NCBI GenBank assembly: GCA_031292195.1
Contig: JARLHP010000068.1
Coordinates: 1 to 54,068, forward strand
Direction: 5' to 3'
DNA length: 54,068 nt
DNA from: Syntrophobacteraceae bacterium
GTDB taxonomy: Bacteria; Desulfobacterota; Syntrophobacteria; Syntrophobacterales; Syntrophobacteraceae
Shown here in pieces: positions 8,620-43,019 of the stretch. The position numbers and the translations under genes were made by a program. The notes beneath the pieces are model-generated. The model saw only the letters and a list, made by a program, of their open reading frames with translations. It did no database searches and had not been told where the DNA came from. The number at the start of each line of letters is the position of its first letter. Positions within the stretch are counted from its first letter, which is position 1.

Positions 8620-8770
8620 CTTTTTGCTCCTTTGGCTGTTCGGGTAAGTAGCGCTCAGTGAGTAATAAACGGCCGAGGGTATAAAGGAAAAGTAAAAAGT
8701 TGATGCACAGGATATCCACTGCCGCGTGTTATACTCTGCGAGGTCACAAACCGCGGAAGAGAAGTCATTC

Positions 8771-8850: not shown

Positions 8851-8888
8851 AAGAACCGCTGTAACTGGCGTCGCCGGGGGAGGAAAAC

Positions 8889-9563
8889 TTGAAGATCATC
8901 GCCATAATTGGAAGTCCTCACGCCGAATGGGGCAACACGGCCAAACTGACCCGCCTGGTCCTAAAAGGCGCCGAACAGCAGGGAGCTTCCACCCAAACTA
9001 TTTACCTGCGGAGCGATGCCGTCTTGCCGTGTCTTGGATGCGACTACTGCCACAAGAAAGGCGTGTGCGTCCAGAAGGATTCGTTCGAAGAAATTCGCCG
9101 CTCCGTATTGGAAGCGGACGGCCTGGTCTTGGCCAGCCCCAACTACATCTTCAATGTCAGCGCCCAGATGAAGGCGTTCATGGATCGTTGCGCGGGCATG
9201 GTCCACTGCCTTGGTTTCCAGGGAAAATACGGGGCTGCGGTGGTCACCTCGGGAGGCGGGGACGAGGCGCCGATCGCAGATTACATGAACCATTTTCTGA
9301 TGATTACCGGCATCCAGTCGGTCGGCTCGGTATGGGCCACGATGAGCCTGATCCCCGGAGACCAATTCCCGCAGGATATTGCGACCAAAGCGCTCGACCT
9401 CGGGAAACGGTTGGTCAGCGCATCGGAAAATAAGGAAATCTTCCCTGAAATCCGCCAGAAAATGGACGCCTTCGAGCAGCGCATGCGCGCTCTTATACAA
9501 TACCGCAAGGACGAATGGCCCTACGAGTATGAATACTGGAAGAAATTCAATGGTTTAAAGTAG
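8889..9563 (+). CDS. Flavodoxin-fold NAD(P)H-dependent reductase / iron-sulfur flavoprotein-like
   Basis: This 224-residue protein has the flavodoxin-like fold of NADPH-dependent FMN reductases. The N-terminus KIIAIIGSPHAEWGNTAKL (residues 2-20) is the FMN phosphate-binding loop, CLGCDYCHKKGVC (about 49-61) is the compact Cys motif of iron-sulfur flavoproteins and related reductases, and SPNYIFNVSAQMKAFMDR matches the second flavin loop. The TTG start follows GGGGGAGGAAAAC. It probably moves electrons between a nicotinamide or ferredoxin and an unknown acceptor in the cytoplasm. It is divergent from the DUF169 cluster and is followed after 49 bp by the NTPase gene. Confidence 0.85.
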   Translation: MKIIAIIGSPHAEWGNTAKLTRLVLKGAEQQGASTQTIYLRSDAVLPCLGCDYCHKKGVCVQKDSFEEIRRSVLEADGLVLASPNYIFNVSAQMKAFMDRCAGMVHCLGFQGKYGAAVVTSGGGDEAPIADYMNHFLMITGIQSVGSVWATMSLIPGDQFPQDIATKALDLGKRLVSASENKEIFPEIRQKMDAFEQRMRALIQYRKDEWPYEYEYWKKFNGLK

Positions 9564-9612
9564 GGGCACATAGCATATTCGGTATCGGACGGTAAATTTT
9601 AAGGAGCAGGAT

Positions 9613-12346: not shown

Positions 12347-12430
12347 AAGTGGAGAAAGAAGCGCCTCAAAATGACTGGAACAAGCAGCTTTCAGCCCAAG
12401 AAAGCCCGGACAGGCCCCAAGGAGGGAAAA

Positions 12431-12793
12431 TTGAAAACCAAAAGAGACCCAAACGCCCCCGGCCCCCACTCGGCAAAGAGTTGCCGGGAATTGCTCCAGA
12501 TGATGCCAAAAGGATTCAGTCCGTTGGCGGCAAACGGGCTTACCGCCGTCTACCAGTTCGAGGTGTCGGGAAGCGAGGATTTTACGGCGCACCTGAGTAT
12601 CGATGGCCAGACCTGCACCTACGTGGACGGCCCGGCGGACCGCCCCGACGTGATCATTAAAACGCCCGCCGATGTCTGGCTGGCGATCTCCAAAGGCGAA
12701 ATGAACGGCCAACTGGCCTTCATGACCCGCAAGTTCAAGGTAGAGGGAAACCCGGGCCTTGTTCTCAAGCTCCCCGATCTGTTTCCCCGATAG
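12431..12793 (+). CDS. SCP2 sterol-binding domain protein
   Basis: This protein of 120 residues is a single SCP2-like lipid-binding domain: a five-stranded sheet carrying F-T-A-H-L-S-I-D-G-Q-T-C-T-Y, then D-V-I-I-K-T-P-A-D-V-W-L-A-I-S-K-G and a closing amphipathic helix (K-F-K-V-E-G-N-P-G-L). Bacterial members bind hydrophobic ligands, and in some genomes sit near acyl-CoA or lipid genes. I chose the TTG at 12431 because AAGGAGG lies 5 bp upstream; an ATG at 12371 in the same frame would add 20 lysine-rich residues but has no good ribosome binding site. It lies about 85 bp after the TPR gene and may be in the same transcript. Confidence 0.8.
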   Translation: MKTKRDPNAPGPHSAKSCRELLQMMPKGFSPLAANGLTAVYQFEVSGSEDFTAHLSIDGQTCTYVDGPADRPDVIIKTPADVWLAISKGEMNGQLAFMTRKFKVEGNPGLVLKLPDLFPR

Positions 12794-12849
12794 AACATTG
12801 TCGACTGGACAGAAAACTTCCTGGTGGGCGCCAAAGAACTTGTGCCACC

Positions 12850-15174: not shown

Positions 15175-15208
15175 GGACACCCCCTCTTTATCCCGTCAAC
15201 TTGGCTGG

Positions 15209-15829
15209 TTAGCTGTCACGTCCGACTTTGGCGCGAAGCATTCCCAGCAGGGTGTCAAAGGAATTATTGGCCAGGATCGACGAGATCTGGGCCCGGTAGT
15301 TATCGTCGTAGCTTATTCCCTCTACCACCACGTCGTAAACTTTCCACTGTTGCCCCTCCAGGCGTAATCGATAGTCAATCGCCATATTTTCGCCGTTGGA
15401 GAGAAAGTGGGTCTTTACAACGGCCAGGTTAGCGTTGATTGTCTGGGAATCGTAGACGATCTTCTCGTTGTGGTAGCGCTCCATTCGGTCGACATAGGTG
15501 TTGAATAGCAGCTTTTTGAAAAGATCGGAGAATTCCTGACGCTTTTCGGGGGATTGTTGTTTCCAGGGATACCCCAGGGCCATTTTCGACATTTGCTCAA
15601 AGTCGAAATACTTGCTGACGATCTGGAGGACTTCCCCTTCTCTTTGCCGTAAAGAAGGCGCCTGGCCCCTTTCAGACTGGCGCAAAATGGTGAGCACCTT
15701 TTCGCTCCCGCTCCGGATAACACTCATCGGGCTCTCTACCGCAGCCCACGTCCCCTGCGGAATGACGAGCAAAATGACCAGGAGAAACGATTCTACGAAA
15801 AACCTGCTTCCTTTCAGTCTCAGCCGCAC
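15209..15829 (-). CDS. mlaC: MlaC/Ttg2D-family periplasmic phospholipid-binding protein
   Basis: This 206-residue protein has a signal peptide (residues about 1-29, ending T-W-A-A) and the MlaC/toluene-tolerance Ttg2D domain. Typical signs are F-D-F-E-Q-M-S-K-M-A-L-G near residue 73, S-P-E-K-R-Q-E-F-S-D-L-F-K, and a C-terminal Y-D-V-V-V-E-G-I-S-Y-D-D-N-Y-R-A-Q-I. MlaC proteins carry phospholipids across the periplasm; the hopanoid variant HpnM pairs with an RND transporter. The GTG start has GGAGG nearby. The gene precedes the MMPL gene by 35 bp in the same direction, so the two should form one lipid-transport unit. No MlaD, MlaE or MlaF is present in this window. Confidence 0.85.
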   Translation of the reverse strand: MRLRLKGSRFFVESFLLVILLVIPQGTWAAVESPMSVIRSGSEKVLTILRQSERGQAPSLRQREGEVLQIVSKYFDFEQMSKMALGYPWKQQSPEKRQEFSDLFKKLLFNTYVDRMERYHNEKIVYDSQTINANLAVVKTHFLSNGENMAIDYRLRLEGQQWKVYDVVVEGISYDDNYRAQISSILANNSFDTLLGMLRAKVGRDS

Positions 15830-28200: not shown

Positions 28201-28509
28201 ATGAGAATAATTAGCAAAAGCCGGCTTAAGAGCTTTTGGGAGGACCACGGGCAAGCCGAGTGGATACTACAAGAATGGTACTCCATTGTGGGCAAAGCTA
28301 AATGGAAAAGTTTCGACGAGCTGCGCAAAATCTATCCGAGTGCCGACCAGGTATCGGTTAAGAGCGGGAAAACGACAACTGTTTTTAATATTGGCGGCAA
28401 TAAATACAGACTCATTGCGGCTGTCCATTACAACAAACAGACAGTTTACATTCTCGATGTAATGACTCACGCCGAGTATGACAAGAATGCATGGAAGAAC
28501 AAATTCTGA
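28201..28509 (+). CDS. higB: HigB-type toxin (mRNA interferase family)
   Basis: This 102-residue protein matches the HigB toxin family (RelE superfamily): an N-terminal helix with W-E-D-H-G-Q-A-E, a central strand (D-Q-V-S-V-K-S-G-K-T), F-N-I-G-G-N-K-Y-R-L-I-A-A-V-H-Y and a C-terminal V-Y-I-L-D-V-M-T-H-A-E-Y-D, where the HAEYD ending is characteristic. Family members cut mRNA on the ribosome and are held inactive by the antitoxin encoded just after. It is complete and in frame. The ribosome binding site is weak. It precedes its antitoxin, the usual order for higBA. Confidence 0.85.
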   Translation: MRIISKSRLKSFWEDHGQAEWILQEWYSIVGKAKWKSFDELRKIYPSADQVSVKSGKTTTVFNIGGNKYRLIAAVHYNKQTVYILDVMTHAEYDKNAWKNKF

Positions 28510-30429: not shown

Positions 30430-30705
30430 TTGCGGGGCATACCGCAGGACGACCGGCAAACCATCGGTTTCGACCTTGCCACGGTTCAAGTCGGGTGGCC
30501 GGTCGGAATGCCGTTGTGCCGCTCGATTGGCGGCGGACTATGGGAACTGCGTAGCCGCCTTCCAGGCCGCCGCACAGCGCGGCTAGTGTTTTTCGTCCGC
30601 GAGGGGCAAATTGGCATTGTGCACGGGTTTATCAAGAAGACACAAAAAACGTTACGGGAAGAAATCGACTTGGCGCGGAAAAGAATGATAGAGATGACAT
30701 CATGA
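30430..30705 (+). CDS. RelE/Gp49-type toxin with no canonical start for its conserved N-terminus
   Basis: The conserved protein extends upstream of the TTG at 30430: codons from about 30364 encode K-E-I-P-V-V-L-Y-R-T-A-T-G-I-E-P-V-W-D-W, a typical N-terminus of phage-derived Gp49-like HigB toxins, but between the in-frame TGA (30346-30348) and 30430 no ATG, GTG or TTG occurs. The C-terminal part (L-W-E-L-R-S-R-L-P, F-V-R-E-G-Q-I-G-I-V-H-G-F-I-K-K-T-Q-K) is intact. Translation from 30430 would give 91 residues without the first strand, so the toxin is probably inactive. Its stop overlaps the start of the next gene (ATGA). Confidence 0.6.
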   Translation: MRGIPQDDRQTIGFDLATVQVGWPVGMPLCRSIGGGLWELRSRLPGRRTARLVFFVREGQIGIVHGFIKKTQKTLREEIDLARKRMIEMTS

Positions 30706-30899
30706 GCGGAAAAAATCAACATTGGGGATCGACGCTCGATGACTTTCCGCATGAGGAAGATATTTACGAGGCGGCCAGGACCGAGGCGGTTACGCGGGTG
30801 ATATCGTGGCAGATTGCCGAGGAAATGCGAAAGAAGGGCATCACGAAAACGCAAATGGCCGAGCGTTGTTTAGCGCCTCGGGCGTGGGGCAACTCTTAG
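30702..30899 (+). pseudogene. Truncated XRE antitoxin
   Basis: The 65-residue product begins like antitoxins paired with Gp49-type toxins (M-S-G-K-N-Q-H-W-G-S-T-L-D-D-F) and runs into the first half of the helix-turn-helix (I-A-E-E-M-R-K-K-G-I-T-K-T-Q-M-A-E-R), then switches to unrelated residues and stops. The rest of the DNA-binding domain and C-terminus is missing. The break coincides with the 3' end of the IetS gene (stop at 30870 on the other strand), so the defence block seems to have been joined here. Confidence 0.65.
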
Positions 30900-33464
30900 A
30901 CGTTGAGCAATTTGATCATACACGTGTATGGCATTTTCCGCTTCGATGGTGACAGCGATGCCGTAACGTATGGTGTCCTCGATGCCTCCCGCATCTTCTT
31001 TGCACCACACGCGCAGATTAAGGTAGCCGTCATCAACAAACGGAACCGCCTTGGCGCCATGAAAATGCTCGTGGAAAATTGTGCCACGCTTCACCACGGG
31101 ATCCGCTGGTTGCTGTTTAAGCCGATCTACCCCTAACACCTCGACTGGCGTTGACATCGGGGCGGCTTCCAGTCGAAAGCACCGGTAATTTTGATGACCT
31201 GCTTTGATTGGCGAGAACCAGGCAATAGTTACGGTTAAGGATCGGGGGTCCGTTACGCGCTCAAGACAATCGGGGAGGGGAATTCGATAGCTGTGGGCGT
31301 GATCCGCTGGTAGCAACCCGTAACCGACCAAGGTTGCTCGATTGGGGGTGCACTCCATCACTTCGTTAGGGTTGGGCGCCCCGAAGCCAACGAATCGGCA
31401 GGCATTCTCCGATCGTGCGACGTGCTGCCTTCTATCTTCCGGGCCGCAGATGTCTTTCAGCAAATCGCCTTTCTCGTTCCAACGAGCACGATGAACAAGG
31501 AGGGTCTTGAGAACGACCGCATAGAATTCGGGGGCCATGTCGGCGAGCATAGAACCACCGTCCCGATCCATTATGGCGTCAAAAATCCGGTGAGCTGCGC
31601 GTGTCGCAAGTGCCGTTGCCGAGCTGGTCCCATCGATAAGCGCAACATAATCTGGTCTTCGGCCTGACGGATCGGGTGTGGCGGCGCGCAATCCGTAGAG
31701 CTGCTGAGGGGGGCTGATTCTGATCTCCAAGACGTCCCCGGTGCTCTTCATGCGGACATACTCGCGTCCACCCGGGAAGTAAATTTCAGGTTTTACCGCG
31801 CGCCGATGTCCAAGTCCAAGGCAGGAACTTATATTCGGCAGAAAATGATCATCAAAGGGATCGACCGCTTGAATCGCGTTGCCCCGCGTCAAGACCTGAT
31901 CGTGATGGTGTGCTCCAATTGTGAGCGCGTTAATGGATTCCGCCGGTGAAAGGATTGATCGTTCATGCTTTGAGGCATTCAAAGCCTCAAGGACCGCCTT
32001 TTCTCGAATGTCTGGCGAAGCGTTCGAAAAGTCCGTCCAATTTGAAAAACTGTCGATTCTTAAAGGCGCCGAAACATTGCCTGCGCTCACTAGGAACAAG
32101 ATTCCGTAGCGTTCTGAAAGGAAGTCGAGGAGTCGAGCCAAGGGGCTTATCATTCGGGTGAAGGGGCGACGGGGGTCTCCCATCGACAGGTTTACTATAA
32201 ACACGCTTGGGGCAGCGGCTTCTTCTCCAGCGCTTCCTTTCATGCGCAGTACCGCGCGGTGAATGGTATCAATTAACAGCCGGTTTCTATCCGTCTCCTC
32301 CCCGCCGTTTTCTGAAGCAATCATTAAGGGCCTGACATAAAGCGGGCGGCTGAGTGCCGGCTCCCGTCCATTGAGGTCTCCGTGCAAAATGAGAGAGGAC
32401 ATGGCCGTACCATGAAGACGGCGCGACACTAAAGCTCGACTCTGCAAGTCGTCCGGGTCATCGAGAACGAGACGGCCGCTCAATAGCGTATGTGCTTGAA
32501 CGGGTACCCCATCCAAAAGAGCGGCGATTGGTTGCTCAGCGGAAGGAACGCCCCATCGACCCTGCAACGAAGCGTCCTCGATCGGTTCTGCTTCATCAGG
32601 ACTCACCAACAGACTCTGTGGCCTGAGAAACATTACATCGTCGGCTAAAGCCAGACGCACATCGCGACGTTCGGTCAGTCCCGGTATGTCCCTCGCCGGA
32701 ATATCGATCAAAGCGCCATGATATGCAATTTCAGGGATAACCACCTCATCAACGACGGATCCGCCTGCTGAGATGACCAAAGAGGCAAGATTTCCCGAGG
32801 CTTGTCGGCGGCGAGTCTCGCGCTGGTGAAACCACAGCTCTACTTCTGTACGCACAGGTCGATCAGGATTATGCTCACGTTCTTCCAGCCAATACTCTAC
32901 TGTTTCTTCAGGGATACGGTCCTGTGCTCCCCAAGGGCGTAAATCGTGTAATTGTGCAAACAGATGTGCGAAGGGGGCAAACCCCGTTTCAAAAGGCAGA
33001 TTCCTTTCCCATCTATCCCATAGACTTAATAATTGCCTGAACGCTTCAATATTGGGCATTGCCAGATAAAAGCGTCCAATGACAGGCTTATCAGTCCTAT
33101 CCTCACCCTCTTTTCCTTTACGAGTGTCCTTAACAGCAAAATATTCATCAGCTTCAAAATCGGCCTCGTATTCAGCCATGAATTCCAGTCCGTCAATCCG
33201 TGCCACGGCTTTAAAGAAATCGGCAATAGCGCCGGCGATTTCGAAGACAATTACCCGATCTGGCGACAGGCTGCCTGGATCGTCTCGCAGTTCCATAGCC
33301 CCTGTTGTTCTGCCCAGAGCCTGCCGAAGACGGTTGAACACCGGACCAAAGCTGGAGACCTGGCGCTGTTTTGTGGGAAAACGTATATTCCCTCCCCCTC
33401 CTCCGCCTTTTGGAGGGGTAATATGCTCAGGAGCGGGAAGAATTAGCAGGGGGCGGCTCGCCAT
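30870..33464 (-). CDS. ietS: Subtilisin-like serine protease, IetS-type
   Basis: This 864-residue S8-family protease has its triad at D318 (A-A-L-L-D-G), H351 (L-H-G-T-A) and S614 (D-G-T-S-S-A-T-A), with the oxyanion Asn463 in S-A-G-N. A Gly-rich N-terminus (R-P-L-L-I-L-P-A-P-E then six Gly) and a long pre-catalytic region match the IetS-type proteases encoded with an AAA ATPase. No signal peptide is seen, so it acts in the cytoplasm. It overlaps ietA by 38 bp. The IetAS pair was first described as a plasmid incompatibility/toxin-antitoxin pair and later shown to give phage defence (general knowledge). Here it ends the defence operon. The target is unknown. Confidence 0.85.
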   Translation of the reverse strand: MASRPLLILPAPEHITPPKGGGGGGNIRFPTKQRQVSSFGPVFNRLRQALGRTTGAMELRDDPGSLSPDRVIVFEIAGAIADFFKAVARIDGLEFMAEYEADFEADEYFAVKDTRKGKEGEDRTDKPVIGRFYLAMPNIEAFRQLLSLWDRWERNLPFETGFAPFAHLFAQLHDLRPWGAQDRIPEETVEYWLEEREHNPDRPVRTEVELWFHQRETRRRQASGNLASLVISAGGSVVDEVVIPEIAYHGALIDIPARDIPGLTERRDVRLALADDVMFLRPQSLLVSPDEAEPIEDASLQGRWGVPSAEQPIAALLDGVPVQAHTLLSGRLVLDDPDDLQSRALVSRRLHGTAMSSLILHGDLNGREPALSRPLYVRPLMIASENGGEETDRNRLLIDTIHRAVLRMKGSAGEEAAAPSVFIVNLSMGDPRRPFTRMISPLARLLDFLSERYGILFLVSAGNVSAPLRIDSFSNWTDFSNASPDIREKAVLEALNASKHERSILSPAESINALTIGAHHHDQVLTRGNAIQAVDPFDDHFLPNISSCLGLGHRRAVKPEIYFPGGREYVRMKSTGDVLEIRISPPQQLYGLRAATPDPSGRRPDYVALIDGTSSATALATRAAHRIFDAIMDRDGGSMLADMAPEFYAVVLKTLLVHRARWNEKGDLLKDICGPEDRRQHVARSENACRFVGFGAPNPNEVMECTPNRATLVGYGLLPADHAHSYRIPLPDCLERVTDPRSLTVTIAWFSPIKAGHQNYRCFRLEAAPMSTPVEVLGVDRLKQQPADPVVKRGTIFHEHFHGAKAVPFVDDGYLNLRVWCKEDAGGIEDTIRYGIAVTIEAENAIHVYDQIAQRLRVAPRPRR

Positions 33465-34458
33465 CGTTTTCCCCTTCCTTGGGCTCTTTGGAACTGTGAG
33501 CTCGTAATGTCCAAATTTCGAGCTGCTCGCCTACGATTGTTTTCAAGCTTTTTCCCCCGGATGACAACACATGACGCCGGCGAATATCAAGGCAAAACTC
33601 CTCGGCGTCAGCGTAGCTTACCCGACCCAGACGTTTAGCTATACCCTGTGGCGAATGGCCAAGAGGCTCATTTAAGAGCTTCGCGAAGGCATCGATATAC
33701 GCTGAGAGTCCTCTTTGCGTCGGGAGCGGTAACATCAGGCGTAACTGAAACCGACGCCAAGCGGCACGATCAAGCAATTCAGGATGGTTCGTCGCGGCAG
33801 CCACAATTGTATAACTGGGAAGCTCATCCACTTGCATCAACAGCGAAGTCACGACACGTTTGATCTCGCCTGTTTCGTGAATATCTCCTCGCTCTTTTCC
33901 TATGGCATCGAACTCATCAAAAAACAGGACACAGGGTGTGGTGCGCGCATAATCAAACACCCTTTTTAACCGGGCTGCGGTTTCTCCAAGATAGCTGCCA
34001 ATCATTGATTCATATCGAACAACGAAGAAAGGAACTGCAACAGCCTCTGCGATTGCCTCCGCGAGTGTTGTTTTGCCGGTCCCGGGCGGCCCGACCAACA
34101 AGACGCGATGACGAGGTTCCAGACCATGGGCACGCAAAAGATCGGCGCGCTGTTGCTCCTCTATAAGCTGTTCAACGCCGCGCTTACTGGCATCTGGGAG
34201 GATAATATCTTCCAACCGCCGACGGGGCATGATTTCAGCAATGAAATCCCGTCCACGCCCGGATAAATCCGAAGCGGGCGAAACGGTGTGAGTTCCCTGG
34301 CCGTTTGTTTGAATCGCTTTGGTTAATCGGTCAGCCAGCACTTTATGCTGCTTCGCGTGTTCTTCAGCAATTATGGCCTCCGCCGCCGCGCGCACACCTC
34401 GCTTGTCGCCGGCGCTGCCGGCTTTTACCAAAGCAATAAGAAGGTCACTCCGTGCCAT
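33427..34458 (-). CDS. ietA: AAA ATPase, IetA-type partner of the subtilase
   Basis: This 343-residue AAA+ protein has Walker A GPPGTGKTT (123-131), Walker B V-L-F-F-D-E-F-D (about 177-184), and an arginine-finger-like A-A-W-R-R-F with a C-terminal helical lid. An N-terminal 110-residue helical region precedes it. The ATG at 34458 (M-A-R-S-D-L-L) is chosen because upstream in-frame codons read into the 3' end of hsdS; the real overlap with hsdS is then 14 bp. The frame overlaps ietS by 38 bp. In the known pair the ATPase restrains or activates the protease. Encoding it directly after hsdS is the unusual point. Confidence 0.88.
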   Translation of the reverse strand: MARSDLLIALVKAGSAGDKRGVRAAAEAIIAEEHAKQHKVLADRLTKAIQTNGQGTHTVSPASDLSGRGRDFIAEIMPRRRLEDIILPDASKRGVEQLIEEQQRADLLRAHGLEPRHRVLLVGPPGTGKTTLAEAIAEAVAVPFFVVRYESMIGSYLGETAARLKRVFDYARTTPCVLFFDEFDAIGKERGDIHETGEIKRVVTSLLMQVDELPSYTIVAAATNHPELLDRAAWRRFQLRLMLPLPTQRGLSAYIDAFAKLLNEPLGHSPQGIAKRLGRVSYADAEEFCLDIRRRHVLSSGGKSLKTIVGEQLEIWTLRAHSSKEPKEGENDGEPPPANSSRS

Positions 34459-35662
34459 GGGTTCCCCCACACGTCTCGTTAAATGTTCTTGCCAGCAGTG
34501 TGTCGAAGACGGCCTCGCTTTTCTCCGTACCATTGACTTGCTGGGCTTGGATAGAGAAGACATCTCGACAGTGGTGCTCATAAATGTCTTGTCGGTCAAT
34601 CGGAGGTATTATAATCGGAAACGCTCGCAATTCACGTGCGTTAATATTTGATTGCCCGATGGCGCCACGGGCCGTTTCGAACAACGTACGCTTCATGTGT
34701 GCCGAATTCATGAATGCCCAGAAGAAGAACGGATTAACTTTATTCCTTGCGACCCGCACTCGGATGAAATATGACGCGGCAACCGCCTCGCGCGAACCAT
34801 CCCATATGCCCGTCTTTCCAACCAAATCTTTGCTGTTCGTGCGGTTAAAGAGAATGTCACCCTCAACCAGACCGAAGTGTTCTGCGTCTTCTCGAGACAA
34901 CTCCACGTACTTTAAGTCGTCGAGTTTAAGATAGCCGGCGAAATCGACATTTCCCATCCGGATCATGGGAACCCCCGCCACGTTATCTGACGCCTTTTTA
35001 CTGCTTCCGTAGTCGGCCGCAACAATAACATCGCCAGCCGTTGCCATCGGCCACCCTTTCGGATTCGTCGCAGAATCGCCAAACATATCGAGGAACAGGG
35101 CCGGAATTATCTCCGCAGCTTTCTTTTGCGCTTCCCGCCGCAGGCGGACAATCCCTTCTGCACGGGAGAGAATATCGACGACGCGGTGTTGTTCTTCGAG
35201 CGGAGGAAGCGACATTTCCATCCGCCGAAGCTCGGATGACTTGAATGCGGCCTGGCTCACCCAGCGCGTTGCTTGCGCAGAGAAATACCCAATGTCCCGC
35301 GTCCTGTGAAACCAATAAGCCATGAACTGTGGCATGACCCTGGTTTGGTCAACCCGAATGCGCGTCAAGTGATTGGAAAATCCAGCTTTTATTGGCTGTT
35401 CAATCAGAGCGGCCTTGCCCACCAACTCAGCACTGTTTGTGTTGTTGAAGAGAATGTCACCCTCCTCTAGCATTTCCTTGCCATTCGGAGCCTCCTCCGG
35501 GGGGACTTTATAGATTTGGTCCAAAGAAAGCTGGCCGCTATTCGTAAGGTTGAAGGGGCGAAGATGAATCAGACCATTCTCCACCAGCTTGGTTTTGCTA
35601 CATGCGAAACCGGATTCATCTGAAACGATGATATCATTGAGCAACACGCGGGGAGTTTTCAT
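34445..35662 (-). CDS. hsdS: Type I restriction-modification specificity subunit HsdS
   Basis: This 405-residue protein has the duplicated design of HsdS: two target-recognition domains (about 1-160 and 200-370), each starting with a W/D-rich strand and including N-N-T-N-S-A or N-R-T-N-S-K-D-L-V-G-K-T-G, separated and followed by conserved helices (L-P-P-L-E-E-Q-H-R-V-V-D-I-L-S-R-A-E and I-I-P-P-I-D-R-Q-D-I-Y). It reads DNA sequence for methylation and restriction. The sequence recognised cannot be read from it. It starts within the ATGA that closes hsdM and overlaps ietA by 14 bp. Confidence 0.92.
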   Translation of the reverse strand: MKTPRVLLNDIIVSDESGFACSKTKLVENGLIHLRPFNLTNSGQLSLDQIYKVPPEEAPNGKEMLEEGDILFNNTNSAELVGKAALIEQPIKAGFSNHLTRIRVDQTRVMPQFMAYWFHRTRDIGYFSAQATRWVSQAAFKSSELRRMEMSLPPLEEQHRVVDILSRAEGIVRLRREAQKKAAEIIPALFLDMFGDSATNPKGWPMATAGDVIVAADYGSSKKASDNVAGVPMIRMGNVDFAGYLKLDDLKYVELSREDAEHFGLVEGDILFNRTNSKDLVGKTGIWDGSREAVAASYFIRVRVARNKVNPFFFWAFMNSAHMKRTLFETARGAIGQSNINARELRAFPIIIPPIDRQDIYEHHCRDVFSIQAQQVNGTEKSEAVFDTLLARTFNETCGGTHGTE

Positions 35663-37281
35663 TCTGTCTCCGCCAGCACGGTCCGCAAAGCTTCCACCTC
35701 TTCCATAATCTCCGCCTCAATCGCCGCCAGTTCTTCCAGCAGTTCGCGGGGGTCCCGGTGCTCAACCGCCGTACGGTTCATAGGCCGGTAGCGTCCGGCC
35801 GAGAGGTTGAAGTCATTGGCGCGGAGCGTGGCCGCGTCTGCAAACCACCAGTTATTGGTCCATTCCTTGGACTTGTCGCGGTTTTCCCACTCGGCCAGGC
35901 GTTCGCCCTTCCCTTGATATGTCGCCACCAGCCCGGGCAGGTCGTCTAGTTCAATGGGCGTGTCGTGATTGGCATCGAGCTTATAGCCGTCATCATCGGC
36001 GTGCAGGAACAGCACGCGCTCCGTGGTCCCTCCCCTCCTGAAGAACAGCACCGAGGTTTTGACGCCCGAATAGGGCTGAAAAACGCCACCCGGGAGCGAC
36101 AACACGGCCTCGACTCGGTTGTTTTCGATCAGTTGCCGGCGCAGTTCCTTATGGGCCGTTGTGGAGCCGAACAGGACGCCTTCGGGCACGATGACACCAC
36201 ACCGTCCGCCGGGGCGAAGGCTGTCCATCATGTATTTCACGAAAAGAAGCTCGGTTGCGGTCGAGGTCCCGACCTTCACGTCATCGACGATGCGGTCCTT
36301 GTCCACGCGCCCCGAAAACGGCGGATTGGCGAGCACCACGTTATAGCCGTCAGGCGGCAGTCCATACTCGGCCTTTTTCTCGGCATCGAGCGTCGTGGTA
36401 AGAACGTTGCGCAACAGGATGTGCACGTTCGGAAGCCCGCGCAGAGTCAGGTTCATCGTGGCCAGGCGGACCATTTTGGGGTCCACGTCGCTTCCGAAGA
36501 ACGTGGCCGTCTGCAGGGCCGAGACTTGCTTGGCGGAAAGCTTGTCTCCCCATCCGCGCCGCTGCGCTTTCCCGTCCACCTCGACTTCCTGGATGGCGCC
36601 GGCCGATGAATGGACAAGCCGGATATGGTTGTAGGCGGCGACAAGAAAGCCGGCCGTTCCGGCCGCTGGATCGAAGATCGTCTCGCCGATCTTCGGGTCG
36701 ATGATCTCTACGATTGTCCGGATGATGTGGCGCGGCGTCCGGAACTGGCCAAGCTCGCCCGCCTGTTTGATTTGCTTGAGCACATGCTCGAAGAGATCTC
36801 CCTTGCTGTCAGCATCCTCCTGGTCGAGCCGGAGCCCGTCCACCAGGTTGATGACCTGGGTTAAAACGGTCGGCTCGTCAATCGTGAGGCGCGCGCCGCG
36901 CATGAAATTATGCGTGCCGTTTTCGGCGAATTCGGCAAAGAACGAAAACACTTCATCACGCACAAAACGCACCAGTGGCTCGCCTGAAAGCCCTTTTGCC
37001 CACACCGACCAGCGGAAGCGCTCCCGCGGGACGCTCGCAACGCCTTTTTTCGGGGCGTTGAGCGGGTTTTTGAGCGTCCAGTCGCCCTCGAACATGCTGG
37101 TGTAGGGCCGTTTCAGGACCTTGGCTTTCATGATGTTGTCGCGGTCGATGCCCTCGATCAGGTAAAAGAAAAATAAAAACGAGAGCTGTTCGGCATTCGT
37201 GACCGGATCGGGGTATCCGCCGCCATAGAGATAGTCTCGGATTTGCTCGATGGAGCGGCGCATGTCGGGAGTTAAAGGCAT
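35659..37281 (-). CDS. hsdM: Type I restriction-modification methyltransferase HsdM
   Basis: This 540-residue N6-adenine methyltransferase has the HsdM N-terminal helical domain (residues about 1-150), the SAM-binding F-D-P-A-A-G-T-A-G-F (about 205-214) and the catalytic N-P-P-F (in V-V-L-A-N-P-P-F-S-G, near residue 312). Length is normal. It overlaps hsdS by 4 bp and follows hsdR after 19 bp. It methylates the host sites and, with HsdS, forms the core enzyme. No damage is seen. Confidence 0.93.
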   Translation of the reverse strand: MPLTPDMRRSIEQIRDYLYGGGYPDPVTNAEQLSFLFFFYLIEGIDRDNIMKAKVLKRPYTSMFEGDWTLKNPLNAPKKGVASVPRERFRWSVWAKGLSGEPLVRFVRDEVFSFFAEFAENGTHNFMRGARLTIDEPTVLTQVINLVDGLRLDQEDADSKGDLFEHVLKQIKQAGELGQFRTPRHIIRTIVEIIDPKIGETIFDPAAGTAGFLVAAYNHIRLVHSSAGAIQEVEVDGKAQRRGWGDKLSAKQVSALQTATFFGSDVDPKMVRLATMNLTLRGLPNVHILLRNVLTTTLDAEKKAEYGLPPDGYNVVLANPPFSGRVDKDRIVDDVKVGTSTATELLFVKYMMDSLRPGGRCGVIVPEGVLFGSTTAHKELRRQLIENNRVEAVLSLPGGVFQPYSGVKTSVLFFRRGGTTERVLFLHADDDGYKLDANHDTPIELDDLPGLVATYQGKGERLAEWENRDKSKEWTNNWWFADAATLRANDFNLSAGRYRPMNRTAVEHRDPRELLEELAAIEAEIMEEVEALRTVLAETE

Positions 37282-37300
37282 ATCTTCTTTTTCCTGTTGC

Positions 37301-39445
37301 CTAATGAAACGGAAGCAACTGTTGCTCTTCCGCCGCGAGAGAGAGTTCTGTTGGGTATTTACTGAACACGGCCGCTGTCAGCCCGCTCAGCAGACTTTCC
37401 AGCCGCTCTTCACCGCCAAAGACGCGCGTTGCTTGCATAACCCCGCCCATAAGAGTGAAGGGCGGGAAAGCGAGATGTGCAAGGCTGAACTCATCCAGGG
37501 TGTCGGCATTGGCGCGGAGCTGGTTCCCGATCACGCGCAGCCAGCTTTCTTCGGTTGGCGTCAGACCCTCCTGGCCCAGGAGCCAGGCCTCGAAATTCGC
37601 GCCAACCTCCACCGCCTTCTGTTCCGAAGCTTCCGGGAAGATCATTTTGCCGTTTTCGTCGATCGTGACCCACTCCCGGGTCATCGGGTCGATATGGTCG
37701 TCGATATCCAGAGCCAGCAACTTGCGCGGCTCGTATTTCTTTTTCTTCTTCCGCTCCGTTATGATCCCGCCCTTGATGATCTCCTCGTCGTCGCCATGGT
37801 AGTCGCAGACGCCCACGAAATCAAACATGGTGAAAACCGGTTTTGTGGGCAGCTTGCGCGTTCCGCGACCTCGCATCTGCTGGTAGAGAATGGCCGATTT
37901 GGTGAAGCGCGCAAACACCAGGTTGACCACCTCGGGACAGTCGAAGCCGGTGTCGAGCATGTTGACCGACACCAGGATTTTCGGGAAATTCTCTTTTTTA
38001 AACCGCTTGATCTTGCTCATACCGTCAACCGTGTCATCTTTCCCCGTGCCCGAGACCACATAATCGGCATAGCGGATTTCCGGGGAAGGTTTTTGATCCT
38101 TGAATTGCTCGTCGAGCATTTCGGCCAGGGTTTCCGCATGGCGTTTGGTGACAGCGAAGACGATGCTCTTGCCAATGAGCGGCTTGCGCAACCTGCCCTT
38201 ATCGTCCCGGTAGCCGTTATCGTACACGTCGCGGAACTCCCGCACGATTGCACGGTTGCGTTCCGGGATCGTGAAACGTCGCTCCAGGGCCGCCGGGTCG
38301 ATCATGATGCTTTGCTCGTCCCCAAACAGCTTTTCGAATTCGCCGCGGGTGATCGCATCCATAGCCGACCAGTCAAGCTCATTGCGTTTGACCTCGAAGC
38401 CGCCATCGGCGGCCGTTTTCACGGTTTTGGCCTTGTAAATCTGGTAAGGGACCAGGTAACCCTCGCGGATGGCATCCTTCAGCTTGTAGGTAAACGTCGG
38501 CTTGTCCACTTCGAAAAAGCGCAGCGTGTCGCGCACGAAAAGCCTGTCCTCTTCGTCGTCTCCGGCGTTTTCCCCCGCCACACAGGGCGTTGCCGTGAGG
38601 CCGACCTGGATACCGTCGAAGTGTTTTAAAACGCCGCTCCATTTGCCGTAAATGCTGCGGTGACATTCGTCGCTGATAATCAGATCGAAATACCCCGAGG
38701 AATAATCGCCGTAGATATTGATCATGCTTTGCAGGGTGGTGATCGTGACTTGTTTTTCGTCCTGGAAGCGCCGGCCCGCCCGCAGCACGTAACAGGGATA
38801 ATCCGGCAGATGCTCCGCAAAGACGTCTTCGGTTTGCTTGGCGAGTGGTATGCGATCCACGAGGAACAAAACGCGCGTGATGGCGTTCGCTTGAAACAGC
38901 CGCTTGATGAAAGCCGCCGCCATGCGGGTTTTGCCCGTCCCGGTCGCCATCTCCACGAGCAGCTTACGCCTGCCCTGCCTTATTTCCTGGCAAAGGGTGT
39001 CAATGCATTCCATCTGATAATCCCGGCCGGCGATGTGTTTGTCGATAGGCACCCCAAGCGGGTCTTGTTTCACCTGGCGGGTGGCAAAACGCTTTTCAAG
39101 GTCTGTCTGTTTGAAGAACGTTTTAACCGCGCGCGGAAAGGCTTGGCTTTCCCATTCCCAGAAACGGATTTCCTGTCCGTTGGCCAGAAACACATAAGGG
39201 ACGCCGAGCTGTTTTGCATAGGCTTTGGCCTGCTCAGCCGCCTCCCCCGGACTGATAGAGAACCGCTTCGCCTCGATCACAGCCAGGGAACGCCCGTAGC
39301 GGTCGCAGAGCACATAGTCCGCCCGCGTGTTATCCGGTAACACGTATTCGTAACGGACACTGTTTGGGTCTTGTGTTTTCCATCCCAGATCGGCCAACTG
39401 GGAGTCGATTAGCACCCGCGAGAAAGCTTCATTGCTGTTTGTCAT
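37301..39445 (-). CDS. hsdR: Type I restriction enzyme subunit HsdR
   Basis: This 714-residue protein has an N-terminal nuclease domain (D43...E58-A-K60, the Glu-x-Lys motif), a superfamily 2 helicase with Walker A M-A-T-G-T-G-K-T near residue 166 and D-E-C-H near 260, helicase motif VI-like Q-Q-M-R-G-R-G-T-R, and a short C-terminal domain. It is of the EcoEI-like class, which is shorter than EcoKI HsdR of over 1000 residues. It cuts unmodified DNA with translocation. It starts in the ATGA overlap of the 75-residue gene. The order R-M-S in one operon is unbroken. Confidence 0.9.
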   Translation of the reverse strand: MTNSNEAFSRVLIDSQLADLGWKTQDPNSVRYEYVLPDNTRADYVLCDRYGRSLAVIEAKRFSISPGEAAEQAKAYAKQLGVPYVFLANGQEIRFWEWESQAFPRAVKTFFKQTDLEKRFATRQVKQDPLGVPIDKHIAGRDYQMECIDTLCQEIRQGRRKLLVEMATGTGKTRMAAAFIKRLFQANAITRVLFLVDRIPLAKQTEDVFAEHLPDYPCYVLRAGRRFQDEKQVTITTLQSMINIYGDYSSGYFDLIISDECHRSIYGKWSGVLKHFDGIQVGLTATPCVAGENAGDDEEDRLFVRDTLRFFEVDKPTFTYKLKDAIREGYLVPYQIYKAKTVKTAADGGFEVKRNELDWSAMDAITRGEFEKLFGDEQSIMIDPAALERRFTIPERNRAIVREFRDVYDNGYRDDKGRLRKPLIGKSIVFAVTKRHAETLAEMLDEQFKDQKPSPEIRYADYVVSGTGKDDTVDGMSKIKRFKKENFPKILVSVNMLDTGFDCPEVVNLVFARFTKSAILYQQMRGRGTRKLPTKPVFTMFDFVGVCDYHGDDEEIIKGGIITERKKKKKYEPRKLLALDIDDHIDPMTREWVTIDENGKMIFPEASEQKAVEVGANFEAWLLGQEGLTPTEESWLRVIGNQLRANADTLDEFSLAHLAFPPFTLMGGVMQATRVFGGEERLESLLSGLTAAVFSKYPTELSLAAEEQQLLPFH

Positions 39446-39669
39446 GCGCTCTCTTCTGCCGCCGGGATGGTAAGTTCGGCTTCAACCGTGTCTTCGTCTG
39501 CCTCAACGTCCTCCCCTTCTTCCGGAACATCGCCAACGTAGGGCGCCTCCCCCGTCACCACCTCTATCAGCCTCATAAGTTGCTTTTGTCGGTCCGCCAT
39601 AAAAGCTTCAAAAGCATCGGTGCGCAGTAGCGATTTGGAATACAGGGTTTGTTTTAAAGATAGACTCAA
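39442..39669 (-). CDS. Small acidic protein between abiEii and hsdR
   Basis: This 75-residue frame starts with TTG (39669) and overlaps hsdR by 4 bp. The first 40 residues would form a basic/amphipathic helix (F-E-A-F-M-A-D-R-Q-K-Q-L-M-R-L-I-E), and the last 35 are acidic (E-E-G-E-D-V-E-A-D-E-D-T). The ribosome binding site is weak. I do not recognise it. Small genes at the head of type I operons sometimes encode regulators or DNA-mimic-like accessory proteins; that is only a guess. Overlap and direction argue for a real gene. Confidence 0.6.
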   Translation of the reverse strand: MSLSLKQTLYSKSLLRTDAFEAFMADRQKQLMRLIEVVTGEAPYVGDVPEEGEDVEADEDTVEAELTIPAAEESA

Positions 39670-39696
39670 GCACTCTGTGCAGTCTCCTTTGTGGTC

Positions 39697-40626
39697 CTAC
39701 GAACGCGAAACCAGTATCACAAGCCGCCTTGTGGCCGAGAAGGCCTCGGCAAAACTGATCCGCTCATCTTCTTTTGCAAACGATACCTGCAGGACGAAAG
39801 TTTCATACTCCGAAGCCCACAGCTTGTCATTGTGCAGAAGATCGAGCATGGCTTCAAACCTTTCCTTGGGGCTTGAAGGCACTCCCTCCCCTCCCCGACC
39901 TGTGTCGCCTTCGACCGTCTTGCGCGCCAGGGCCGGAAAACAGGACGCCTTGGCCGCGACCCCTTCGAGCGCCGCCAAGTCATGAAGATGCCGGATGATC
40001 GCAGGATCGTCGTCAGCGCTTCCTCTTTTGCGCGTTTTGCGCGCGCACACGCGCCAGGCCAATGTGCTCAACTTGTCGGCGGCTGTTTCTATGGGATCGA
40101 TACAGGGGAAAGCTGCAACTTCGGGCGGCTGCTTTTGCGCCTGTGCGATCAGCGACTGAACCGGCCGGTTGATCGGCTTGAGCGCCGGCGCATGGAAAGA
40201 CATCTCGATGCGAAGGTGGGGCCGGAGGCCCCCTGGTGTCGCGAAATGGCTTGGATAGGCAAGGTCGGCCGCGAAAAACTGGCTTTGATTGCCGATCAGG
40301 GGCGTGCCCGTAAGCTCGAATTCATTCGCCGAGAGGGCCGAGAGAATCCGCTCACGGAAGGTCCGCCGGTTATTGCGGGCCACCGCGCCGCTCGCGGCTT
40401 GCGGCATCGCAACCTTGAAGTCGATATCTTCAGAAAAGCGCTTGATAAGGCTCCATCCCTTCGACAGCGACGTGCCGCCGGAAAAGACCGGCTTCGCGTC
40501 GGCATGATCGAGCGATGCAAGGATGCCAAGGGCGCGGACGACATGCCAGTCCTTCTCGACCAAACCGGGGTTTGTTCCGAGCGCAGTGGCGAGTTGTTCA
40601 ACGAGGTCCCGGGCGAGCACGTTCAA
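39697..40626 (-). CDS. abiEii: AbiEii/AbiGii-type nucleotidyltransferase toxin
   Basis: This 309-residue protein belongs to the AbiEii/AbiGii toxin family (nucleotidyltransferase fold). Visible motifs are G-G-T-S-L-S-K-G (about 49-56), F-S-E-D-I-D-F (about 64-70, with the metal-binding Asp), an E-T-A-A-D-K-L region (about 180) and H-D-L near 211. These match the family motifs I to IV. AbiEii-type toxins modify tRNA or nucleotides to halt growth upon phage attack. The TTG start overlaps abiEi by 29 bp. It is followed after 27 bp by the small acidic gene. Confidence 0.87.
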   Translation of the reverse strand: MNVLARDLVEQLATALGTNPGLVEKDWHVVRALGILASLDHADAKPVFSGGTSLSKGWSLIKRFSEDIDFKVAMPQAASGAVARNNRRTFRERILSALSANEFELTGTPLIGNQSQFFAADLAYPSHFATPGGLRPHLRIEMSFHAPALKPINRPVQSLIAQAQKQPPEVAAFPCIDPIETAADKLSTLAWRVCARKTRKRGSADDDPAIIRHLHDLAALEGVAAKASCFPALARKTVEGDTGRGGEGVPSSPKERFEAMLDLLHNDKLWASEYETFVLQVSFAKEDERISFAEAFSATRRLVILVSRS

Positions 40627-41017
40627 AACTCAAAAAAACCCCGTCATAGCCGAGCTTACGGCTGATACGCCCACGAACGCCCACCACGCGCCCCGTGGGT
40701 ACCTGGGTTGTCCGGCCGGCATTGTAGTCTTGCTCAAGCTGGCTGGCTGTAATCTCGACCCCGAGCCGCATGAGCGCTTCCGTCAGTGTGGCCAGGCCCT
40801 TGGGCGGTACGGGTTTATCCGTGAATGGCGATTTTACGGCGCGGGTGTAAATCCCGTAACCGACCTTGAGCAGTCGGCCGTTGCGGACCAAGCCGCGAAG
40901 AACGCGCCCCACCTGGTCATAGCCGCCGAGGTCGCGGAAATCCGAGCGCAAAAACACGTCGCCGCGTTTACGGGCGATCCGTTTCATGACGCGCGTTTCC
41001 AAGTTTTCGGCTCTCAT
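40598..41017 (-). CDS. abiEi: AbiEi-type antitoxin (winged-helix, DUF6088-like)
   Basis: This protein of 139 residues is the antitoxin-like partner of AbiEii. Its N-terminal part (M-K-R-I-A-R-K-R-G-D-V-F-L-R-S-D-F-R-D-L) is a winged-helix DNA-binding region, as in AbiEi/DUF6088 proteins, and the remainder (G-R-L-L-K-V-G-Y-G-I-Y) is the conserved antitoxin core. The ATG at 41017 with GAGGGG upstream is preferred to the open ATG at 41080, which would include non-conserved residues. AbiEi normally represses its own promoter; a 13-bp inverted repeat lies upstream at 41119. Confidence 0.82.
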   Translation of the reverse strand: MRAENLETRVMKRIARKRGDVFLRSDFRDLGGYDQVGRVLRGLVRNGRLLKVGYGIYTRAVKSPFTDKPVPPKGLATLTEALMRLGVEITASQLEQDYNAGRTTQVPTGRVVGVRGRISRKLGYDGVFLSFERARPGPR

Positions 41018-41039: not shown

Positions 41040-41068
41040 AAAATACGACATTTCAGGGCGCGTTTCAA
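41040..41068 (-). promoter_or_regulatory. Putative promoter of the abiE/hsd/iet operon
   Basis: On the minus strand TTGAAA (41068-41063) and TATTTT (41045-41040) are 17 bp apart, about 23 bp before the abiEi ATG. The leader would be short. Confidence 0.5.
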
Positions 41069-41613: not shown

Positions 41614-42411
41614 TCACTGTCGTTGAGCGGGCAGAGGAAGCGTTCCCGCCACGGTTATTCCCAGCCAGCCAATGCTTGCCCTTTCGGCCTGGACCTCTCC
41701 CAGCAGGCAAAGCTCTTCCACGGGATGGTCGAGCACCGTAATTGTCGCCTCCGCGTCATGAAGATCCGAGCACACCTTGCCCTGGATATCGGGTAAAACC
41801 CACGTCAACTCGGGATAGAGATTTGGCTTCAGAAGGTCCGGCCATGCAACCGTTCCGATTGTGCGATTGGCCATAAAGCCGTACGGTTTTCCGGGTTCGC
41901 CGGAAAGCGTGACCGCAGCCTCTATCAGGCGTCTATCCTTAACGCAAAGCGTGGCTCCAAGCCTGCTCCCCTTTTTGAGCGGTGCGGCGGCCAAATGTTC
42001 CAGGGGCAGGGAGCGCGTGATATAGGTCGAACCGGTCTTTTTCGGCCAGCCCTGGAGCAGTCCGCGAATCAAGGCGACATCCTGATCCACCCAGATAAAA
42101 GGACAGAAGTTGAAGCGATCTCCGTTTGGTCGTTCAATTTCAGTGATAACGATCGTTTCCCGGTACTGGGCGTAAACCGGATCGATCAGTTCCCGCCCGT
42201 CAGTGGTTGCCTGCCAGTCGGCGAAGTGGATACAGCCGTTTCCGGTAAGACGGCCGAGCGCCGGCGGAACGAGAGCCGCACTGTTTGAGATATCGAAATG
42301 TATGGCCACGTTTATCAGCCATCCGGCGTAATGCCATGGCGGTTCAGGCACGATCGACGAACGTCCGCTTGCCGTAAACGGTGCGGTGAAGCTTCTGAAT
42401 TTGATGTCCAC
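41614..42411 (-). CDS. Acetoacetate decarboxylase (ADC) family protein
   Basis: This 265-residue protein has the ADC fold signature. The W-P-K-K near residue 122 (in G-W-P-K-K-T-G) provides the catalytic Lys that forms a Schiff base in true decarboxylases; A-N-R-T-I-G and E-L-T-W-V-L-P are further family stretches. Many ADC-like proteins have other or no known substrates, so decarboxylation of acetoacetate is only one possibility. No solvent-producing genes are nearby. It stands alone between the repeats and a ParE/CopG pair, with about 50 bp to the toxin stop. Confidence 0.8.
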   Translation of the reverse strand: MDIKFRSFTAPFTASGRSSIVPEPPWHYAGWLINVAIHFDISNSAALVPPALGRLTGNGCIHFADWQATTDGRELIDPVYAQYRETIVITEIERPNGDRFNFCPFIWVDQDVALIRGLLQGWPKKTGSTYITRSLPLEHLAAAPLKKGSRLGATLCVKDRRLIEAAVTLSGEPGKPYGFMANRTIGTVAWPDLLKPNLYPELTWVLPDIQGKVCSDLHDAEATITVLDHPVEELCLLGEVQAERASIGWLGITVAGTLPLPAQRQ

Positions 42412-42462: not shown

Positions 42463-42747
42463 TTAAGGTTTATCTTCAAGAGCATGCCAAACTCTCAAAA
42501 TCACGACAGCCTCGCCGTCCAACCGGTAGCGTATTATGTAACCGTGCTTTCCAAAAGGCACAAACAGTTCTCGGTCTTGCCGTCCTTCGAGCCTTTTACC
42601 AACACCGGGATGCACGAGTAAAAGGTTTGTCGCTTTCTTCAGACGCTCTGCGGCGCGTCTGGCCGCCTCCGGATTATCCGGCTCGATGAACCGACGCAAG
42701 CGTAGAATGTCATCACGGGCTGCGGGCAACCATATCAGCGTCGGCAT
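42463..42747 (-). CDS. ParE/RelE-type toxin
   Basis: This protein of 94 residues matches the ParE/RelE toxin family: N-terminal W-L-P-A-A-R-D-D-I-L-R-L-R-R-F-I, helix with A-A-R-R-A-A-E-R-L, H-P-G-V-G-K-R-L-E-G-R, then R-E-L-F-V-P-F-G-K-H-G-Y-I-I-R-Y-R and V-V-I-L-R-V-W-H-A-L-E. The ATG at 42747 is used (an open frame continues to 42786 but is not conserved). ParE poisons DNA gyrase and RelE cuts mRNA; which applies cannot be seen. It overlaps the upstream antitoxin gene by 13 bp. Confidence 0.85.
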   Translation of the reverse strand: MPTLIWLPAARDDILRLRRFIEPDNPEAARRAAERLKKATNLLLVHPGVGKRLEGRQDRELFVPFGKHGYIIRYRLDGEAVVILRVWHALEDKP

Positions 42748-43019
42748 TCGGTCTCCGGCTCCGGGCCTTCCTCGCTTGTTCCCCATGTATCAAACCACGC
42801 TGTCATGGCCTCATTGGTGACAAATTCGCCTGTGCGCTGGTAGGTCTCCCAAGCTTCATCAGCTTCGCGGTTCCTGGCCTCGGCTGCTTCTTCTTTGTTG
42901 AGATATTCTCGAATGGCCTCTCGCATGAGCCAGTGTGTGGATCGTCGTTTTAGCATACCGAGAGATTTCAACCGCTCACAGGTCTCTTCATCAAGCTTTA
43001 CTCCCATTGTTGTCGCCAT
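42735..43019 (-). CDS. CopG/ParD-type ribbon-helix-helix antitoxin
   Basis: This 94-residue protein begins with the ribbon-helix-helix pattern M-G-V-K-L-D-E-E-T-C-E-R-L-K-S-L (strand plus helix), then R-R-S-T-H-W-L-M-R-E-A-I-R-E-Y-L, typical of CopG/ParD antitoxins. The C-terminal half is acidic and would wrap the toxin. It precedes the toxin by an overlap, the usual order. Upstream, AAAGTATAC/ACTTT motifs on the minus strand could be an operator. Confidence 0.85.
   Translation of the reverse strand: MATTMGVKLDEETCERLKSLGMLKRRSTHWLMREAIREYLNKEEAAEARNREADEAWETYQRTGEFVTNEAMTAWFDTWGTSEEGPEPETECRR

Follow-up and report, generated by a model that had tools for sequence, protein, structure and literature searches.

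The contig JARLHP010000068.1 of a Syntrophobacteraceae bacterium (54,068 nucleotides, analysed over its whole length and called the window below) carries a minus-strand run of genes in which IetAS, an AAA ATPase gene followed by a subtilase gene, is joined to hsdS, the specificity gene of a type I restriction-modification (R-M) system. Catalogues of defence systems list IetAS as a pair that stands free; antiphage activity of the founding pair was reportedly described by Gao et al. in 2020, and we know of no established trigger. This IetAS subfamily is found inside methylation systems in separate branches of the IetS tree, often with a methyltransferase, specificity or PglX gene immediately in front of it, and the best reading of the data presented here is that IetAS is an exchangeable unfoldase–protease module that has been recruited repeatedly by methylation-based immunity.

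The window pair has the order of known IetAS, AAA ATPase then S8 protease, and matches the PADLOC subfamily models over nearly their full length (PDLC04232, 485.7 bits; PDLC04233, 975.7 bits). The scores lie far below the NCBIfam equivalog cut-offs (IteA, 228.2 against 510 bits; IteS, 51.7 against 900 bits), and the pair therefore belongs to a divergent subfamily, for which PADLOC already has models, and not to the founding equivalog; it also differs from known IetAS in being joined to hsdS. Both the catalytic triad and the Walker motifs are intact: IetS residues D318, H351 and S614, which we take to be the S8 triad, are kept in 92, 92 and 91 of the 92 loci surveyed below, embedded copies included, and IetA contains GPPGTGKT and FFDEFD, most positions of which are invariant in the 42 rows compared. 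Invariant throughout these rows is L157-G158-E159-T160, presumably the substrate pore loop. The AlphaFold2 model of IetA (predicted local distance difference test, pLDDT, 84.6) begins with a three-helix bundle (residues 3-16, 19-35 and 39-53) that leads into the AAA core, and Foldseek places it near proteasome Rpt subunits, p97 and FtsH. The IetS model (pLDDT 87.1), with pro-Tk-SP, PCSK9 and Kex2 as its nearest folds, suggests a pro-domain and a β-rich C-terminal region; a sequence search of the PDB with an IetS profile gave no match at 1e-3. On these predicted folds, the view of IetAS as an unfoldase paired with a protease is well grounded.

The R, M and S subunits of the adjoining R-M system are encoded together, as identified by both Pfam and PADLOC, and the Pfam domains N6_Mtase, HSDR_N, ResIII and Helicase_C are present, together with ANPPF in HsdM and D...EAK, read from the sequence and taken here as type I R-M motifs; the window HsdRMS is predicted to methylate and cleave DNA sequence-specifically. 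The initial annotation had described ietA as tied to hsdS by a 14-bp overlap, which we can confirm: the hsdS stop falls inside ietA codons 4–5, out of frame (ATGGCACGGAGTGA), and the last HsdS residues are encoded by the ietA start. Position 1 of the PADLOC IetA profile corresponds to the ietA ATG at 34458.

We then surveyed IetAS neighbourhoods. IetA was rejected as a probe, the AAA model matching in 97/97 genomes and in all 14 control genomes, and IetS was therefore used. In 395 genomes of the phylum, the PADLOC IetS model detected 16 loci at 1e-40 or better, and a scan with an 11-sequence IetS alignment supplied contig loci, of which the best 80 of 312 relatives were taken; both samples plus the related genome G007, minus five duplicates (L073, L082, L089, L099, L109), make up the 92 loci. 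Runs were defined as same-strand ORFs with gaps of at most 150 bp, a rule that leaves L085 (HsdM 254 bp beyond ietS) and L088 (HmaC 248 bp before ietA) among the negatives. ORFs were labelled with home-made profiles seeded from proteins identified by PADLOC or Pfam, some seeds being named only by similarity. Scans of representatives with PADLOC or Pfam confirmed BrxC, PglXI, BrxHI, PglZ, BrxL, PglW, PglX, HmaB and HmaC as well as type III Mod and Res, HsdM, HsdS, HsdR and MmeI. The class 'S' profile was seeded partly with a 398-aa protein of L039 that is a YhcG/DUF1016 nuclease, so that the upstream neighbour in L043 is YhcG and not hsdS. Because profiles seeded in IetAS loci could favour these loci over controls, ten unlabelled genes of control runs were scanned with PADLOC, and none was a modification gene except DndA of L184.

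A methylation-system gene shares the run with IetAS in 37 of the 92 loci; 46 closed runs lack one and nine runs reach a contig end. The positives comprise 17 type I, nine BREX3-like, six HMA and two MmeI-like loci and single type III R-M, BrxL-type and PglW/PglX loci, the weakest being L057 and L067, whose neighbours are MmeI-like R-M proteins. In the phylum sample alone, 11/16 loci are positive (10/15 without the window). As a control we used 40 AbiEii loci from the same 395 genomes, hand-picked from the hits by contig position and hence non-random, of which at most four are positive (Fisher p 4e-4 against the 92, 2.6e-5 against the 16 and 7e-5 against the 10/15). One of these four calls, L168, is false, being a TOTE-system protein that had also displaced the AbiEii ORF in the gene call, which leaves three, among them L161 with a true HsdS gene. 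A DndA/SspA gene of DNA phosphorothioation is present in L184. The p values above were computed with 4/40; even a worst case of 5/40 differs from the IetAS loci without the window (p 1.8e-4 against 10/15, p 0.002 against 36/91). A second control, Septu PtuA in the same genomes, gave 0/8 positives, three of the eight loci being cut by contig ends.

A methylation-system gene is the immediate upstream neighbour of IetAS in 26/92 loci within 150 bp and in 19/92 within 20 bp, namely PglX (nine), HsdS (six), HsdM (five), HmaC (two) and one each of BrxL, Mod, HsdR and YhcG, the last a nuclease gene inside an R-M gene set. Qualifying neighbours stand on both sides in 16/92 loci, with SNF2-type helicases counted downstream and the downstream neighbour of L040 missed owing to a spurious 51-aa ORF. 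The initial annotation had called for a survey of ietAS directly behind hsdS, and the adjacency proved not to be confined to the window: five further loci (L039, L047, L081, L086 and L108) share it, with gaps of −14 to +5 bp across the six, the HsdS being confirmed by Pfam Methylase_S in L039, L081, L086 and L108 and named by similarity to the window's in L047. Type I arrangements include HsdM-HsdS-IetAS-HsdR (L086), the same with a 219-aa ORF before HsdR (L108) or a YhcG gene between M and S (L039), and HsdM-IetAS-HsdS-HsdR (L107). Elsewhere the order is BrxC-(141 aa)-PglXI-IetAS-BrxHI-PglZ (L125), Mod-IetAS-ResIII protein (L040), PglW-IetAS-PglX (L133), helicase-IetAS-HmaB (L132) or HmaB-HmaC-IetAS (L095); several of these gene names rest on similarity to the scanned representatives.

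An HsdR-, Res- or helicase-labelled gene occurs in 20/37 positive runs, as might be expected if IetAS provided a built-in, ClpXP-like restriction alleviation that removed stalled or over-active HsdR (or a BrxH, Res or HmaA motor) from unmethylated host DNA and so let the system enter naive hosts. There is a precedent in ClpXP, likewise an AAA unfoldase with a serine protease acting on a type I system, which in restriction alleviation degrades translocating EcoKI HsdR according to the available portion of PMC4231737, and IetA is a p97/Rpt-like unfoldase by its predicted fold. ClpXP is a host protease, however, and an action of IetAS on HsdR is purely hypothetical. No such motor lies within 17/37 positive runs (some have one just outside, as in G007, L098 and L111), R-M loci of the same family exist without IetAS, IetAS also stands free, and the founding pair is reported to be antiviral. 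We regard alleviation as an improbable function of the module.

To follow the history of these associations, we computed a quick IQ-TREE phylogeny of IetS with 91 rows instead of 92, as the L114 protein is short; L057 and L067 entered it labelled 'alone', before their MmeI-like neighbours were identified. The type I label requires 11 changes on this tree versus 15.8 in shuffles (0/500 as low), with at least nine changes forced by supported branches, and the BREX label requires seven versus 10.6 (0/500 as low). A change of label can stand for either a gain or a loss. For type I and BREX, the context is partly inherited and has been gained or lost multiple times.

The window's own R-M core has relatives whose loci vary at both ends. 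With the window HsdR as probe, only its own copy was found in the 395 phylum genomes at 1e-100, and plasmids and the family were therefore searched: hsdR relatives occur in 4/26 genomes of the family, the window included, and on two plasmids (76–79% identity). The R-M-S set stands alone in G005, of the same genus, is followed by IetAS without AbiE in G007, and is flanked by a WGR protein and a 444-aa protein on a Methylococcus plasmid and by a methylase-like protein and DUF262 on an Aromatoleum plasmid; G009 has an AbiEi-like gene, a Fic gene and a broken hsdR. The window locus is thus an hsdR-hsdM-hsdS chassis with cargo positions at both ends, the 5' position holding AbiE beside a DUF262 fossil and the 3' position holding IetAS joined to hsdS. 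In G005, hsdS has its own TAA stop, and no IetA or IetS remnant was found by tblastn (best E 0.19). The junction in G007 is the same as in the window, the hsdS frame entering ietA and ending at a TGA in codons 4–5.

Comparison of the window with G007 points to an exchange of the protease. Amino-acid identity is 89% for HsdR, 88% for HsdM, 35% for HsdS, 71% for IetA and 41% for IetS. The first 40 residues of IetA differ at 0/40 amino acids and 16/120 bases, while from residue 81 onwards the window copy resembles L057 and L058 more than G007 in 7/7 segments. G007 IetA resembles L072 or L077 more than the window copy in 5/7 segments, with ties or lower values in the other two. The breakpoint was placed by visual inspection of 40-residue segments, and DNA similarity remains at 73% as far as codon 246 or so of ietA. 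IetS of the window and IetS of G007 belong to different supported clades. The simplest history for these sequences would be a single joining of ietA to hsdS, after which the rest of the module was replaced in one lineage.

Several observations weigh against the reading of IetAS as a working partner of methylation systems. As many as 55/92 loci have no methylation gene in their run (nine of these runs reach a contig end), and the 80 contig loci were selected for their similarity to an alignment in which embedded copies were already present. The HMA label is not clustered on the tree (six changes versus 5.9 in shuffles). The window's own IetS clade lies mostly outside methylation-system runs, with L059 free-standing, L060 cut by a contig end and L057 with an MmeI-like gene behind IetAS; in L058, a type III-like pair (12669-15674 and beyond), made up of Res with its RE_endonuc domain and a Mod-like gene, lies on the opposite strand at a distance of 79 bp from the ietS end. 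Given such nearest relatives, the window's coupling looks recent. The same R-M core occurs without IetAS in G005 and on the two plasmids, and the window and G007 combine a shared core with IetS of different clades, so that no matching of IetS to its R-M partner is required.

Some of this would also be expected of passive cargo, type I R-M loci being insertion hotspots for defence genes of any kind, in which IetAS and AbiE ride along, co-expressed, and act independently. Runs lacking a methylation gene are common, the relatives carry unrelated genes at both ends of the core (WGR, methylase-like, Fic, DUF262 and 444-aa proteins), and DarTG2, PrrC and others are reported as embedded in type I R-M in the parts of PMC12255303 and PMC12629846 at hand. 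Yet IetAS exceeds both the AbiEii and the Septu controls, often lies between core genes of its host system, and has type I and BREX contexts that cluster on the IetS tree, which makes cargo a possible but somewhat doubtful account. We favour, at about even confidence, a proteolytic layer that works with methylation-based recognition over both cargo and alleviation. IetA, a p97/proteasome-like unfoldase, would unfold proteins and pass them on to the subtilase IetS, itself equipped with a pro-domain. Co-produced with the recognition subunits, the pair would form a second, proteolytic layer that fires when the methylation complex encounters foreign DNA or its proteins or is blocked by them. AbiE would be an independent passenger, serving as defence or addiction cargo.

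A stronger form of the proteolytic layer, which we hold only tentatively and consider rather unlikely, is that IetAS serves methylation-based immunity as a general proteolytic arm, with the N-terminal bundle of IetA docking onto the methyltransferase/specificity complex (HsdMS, PglX, Mod or HmaB/C). Proteolysis would then set in where this complex encounters unmethylated DNA or becomes inhibited, i.e., methylation-guided proteolysis would stand beside methylation-guided cleavage. Two observations agree with this form: the hsdS tail and IetA residues 1–40 are common to the window and G007 while IetS has been exchanged, and the kinds of methylation system that contain IetAS number at least six, although three are so far represented by one or two loci each.

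Further loci deserve mention in their own right. YhcG/DUF1016 PD-(D/E)XK nuclease genes lie in IetAS-bearing type I sets of L039 (8829-10025), L043 (5990-7009) and L083 (10693-11850), and Mod-like genes on the opposite strand beyond IetAS also occur in L066 and L080. L189, on a Sphingopyxis macrogoltabida plasmid and outside the 92, encodes an N-6 methylase, an Eco57I-type methylase, a DEAD helicase and, after a gap of 88 bp, an ATPase similar to IetA (42% identity over 219 aa) that overlaps an S8 peptidase (7972-14120), apparently another case in which a methylation system on a plasmid is accompanied by an IetAS-like pair. In L131 (4305-11821, a Prevotellaceae contig), IetAS stands directly behind genes for an MgsA-type AAA ATPase and an M3 peptidase, a neighbourhood unlike the others.

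The features of the gene run and its borders are listed in the table.

Table. Features of the gene run in the window and of its borders, with supporting matches.
Feature	Coordinates	Strand	Evidence
Sigma70-like promoter candidate before abiEi	41040..41068	-	TTGAAA-17-TATTTT (41068–41040), 9/12 matches
abiEi, AbiE-type antitoxin/regulator, 139 aa, ATG 41017	40598..41017	-	PADLOC AbiEi PDLC02258 1.7e-46
abiEii, predicted nucleotidyltransferase toxin, 309 aa, TTG 40626	39697..40626	-	Pfam AbiEii 2.6e-27; PADLOC PDLC02297 9.2e-88
ORF75, 3'-end remnant of DUF262 gene, probably non-functional	39442..39669	-	match to DUF262 protein C-terminus
hsdR, type I restriction translocase/nuclease subunit, 714 aa	37301..39445	-	ResIII 2.2e-37; HSDR_N 2.4e-6; PADLOC REase_I 5.7e-76
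hsdM, N6-adenine methyltransferase, 540 aa	35659..37281	-	N6_Mtase 1.7e-51; PADLOC MTase_I 3.8e-130
hsdS, specificity subunit, 405 aa, two target-recognition domains	34445..35662	-	Methylase_S, two stretches; PADLOC Specificity_I 8.4e-87
hsdS/ietA 14-bp overlap	34445..34458	-	hsdS TGA out of frame in ietA codons 4–5
ietA, AAA unfoldase-type ATPase, 343 aa, ATG 34458	33427..34458	-	AAA 9.9e-32; PADLOC IetA PDLC04232 1.8e-146
ietS, subtilase (S8) protease, 864 aa	30870..33464	-	Peptidase_S8 3.2e-12; PADLOC IetS PDLC04233 4.8e-294
Short ORF after Gp49-like gene, end overlapping ietS end	30702–30899	+	no Pfam match
Gp49-like toxin gene, convergent	30430–30705	+	PF05973 2.5e-18

The close minus-strand run of eight genes (30870–41017) that had been described earlier is upheld by the ORF coordinates: from 5' to 3' the junctions measure −29 bp (abiEi/abiEii), +27 (abiEii/ORF75), −4 (ORF75/hsdR), +19 (hsdR/hsdM), −4 (hsdM/hsdS), −14 (hsdS/ietA) and −38 (ietA/ietS), so that no gap exceeds 27 bp. 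The "one clear promoter before abiEi" of the same annotation did not hold, as promoter-like sites at the 9/12 level number six in the region versus 5.4±2.1 in shuffles, i.e., the chance level. Terminator-like sites in the same scan are likewise at chance (16 versus 14.3±4.2), and the scan neither establishes a single promoter nor excludes internal ones. As the widest gap between modules is 27 bp, there is little room for a terminator, and transcription of the eight genes as a single operon is likely on gene geometry alone. The far border of the run is formed by the convergent plus-strand pair at 30430–30899. Toxin-type and ribbon-helix-helix genes lie near both sides of the run (HigB-like, 28201-28509, plus strand; the Gp49-like gene; ribbon-helix-helix, 42735-43019, minus strand), an arrangement as in a defence or addiction island. 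Just upstream, at 41614-42411 on the minus strand, is a gene for an acetoacetate decarboxylase family protein (PF06314), whose relation to MppR stays below the cut-off (TIGR04460, 103/380 bits).

At the head of the run, abiEi is adjacent to abiEii in the order and with the models of AbiE type IV toxin-antitoxin systems, from which the window pair differs in heading an R-M gene run; AbiEi matches Pfam DUF6088 only below that model's cut-off. A transfer RNA called by ARAGORN inside abiEi (40782–40865) was rejected, its type being undetermined and its anticodon of two bases. The 75-residue protein counted earlier as an eighth component is better explained otherwise: ORF75 has no family match in Pfam, PADLOC or NCBIfam and aligns with the C-terminal end of plasmid DUF262 proteins (64% identity over 67 aa to a 635-aa protein of a Sphingopyxis plasmid, E 8.5e-27), and we therefore rejected it as a new small component. 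It is most likely, judging from this alignment, what remains of the 3' end of a DUF262 gene formerly located before hsdR, which would mean that one earlier cargo gene has been displaced. In the phylum sample, two AbiEii control loci, L176 (5602-11460) and L166 (6977-9897), lie inside or beside R-M genes, and AbiE embedding is therefore not unique to the window. L148 of G009 (8943-11306) has an AbiEi homologue, which may have a different toxin partner, with the Fic-domain gene, the broken hsdR of the same family and a HipA gene beyond.

The continuity of the run, with its gaps of at most 27 bp, had suggested that AbiE, R-M and IetAS form one system, which would amount to an integrated three-layer defence under shared control. 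Relatives that lack AbiE, IetAS or both do not bear this out. An AbiEii profile that finds 40/40 control loci gave no match in the other 91 IetAS loci, which span at most about 22.6 kb and are often shorter; no three-part locus was found among the other same-genus and plasmid hsdR relatives; and a DUF262 fossil separates AbiE from hsdR. With no second case among IetAS loci or hsdR relatives, we rejected the trio as a conserved unit and consider an integrated system very improbable. The back-up logic proposed with it, in which the protease or AbiEii kills the cell if restriction fails, is possible by analogy with DarTG2 in type I R-M and PARIS-like modules in BREX.

Defence genes embedded in type I R-M are established, in the sections of PMC12255303 (DarTG2) and PMC12629846 (PrrC and others) available. 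The DarTG2/RptR island resembles the window locus in that a type I R-M set encloses a further defence module and, as far as the text at hand of PMC12255303 goes, has an island promoter under one repressor; it differs in its module and position, and IetAS recurs across several kinds of methylation system. For BREX and BREX-related (HMA) loci, the available part of PMC12839542 describes extra genes embedded within core loci and proposed as back-up, the effectors treated there being nucleases; its main text contains no 'ietas', 'subtilisin' or 'subtilase'. In the literature examined, itself covered in part, we came across no account that places IetAS within R-M, BREX, Pgl or HMA operons, and for MADS no relevant paper was among the matches listed. 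The parts are thus known and the breadth of the coupling between IetAS and methylation systems is apparently undescribed, which is not proof of novelty.

IetAS recurs behind the recognition genes in type I, BREX3-like and HMA systems, and one or two cases each come from type III, MmeI-like and Pgl-like systems; this pattern offers a concrete hypothesis on what IetAS may sense or control. Natural locus pairs are at hand: G005 lacks IetAS, and G007 and the window combine closely related R-M cores with differing IetS proteins. The findings would enlarge the set of modules carried within restriction operons by an ATPase–protease, those reported in the accessible portions of the sources above being nucleases and toxins.

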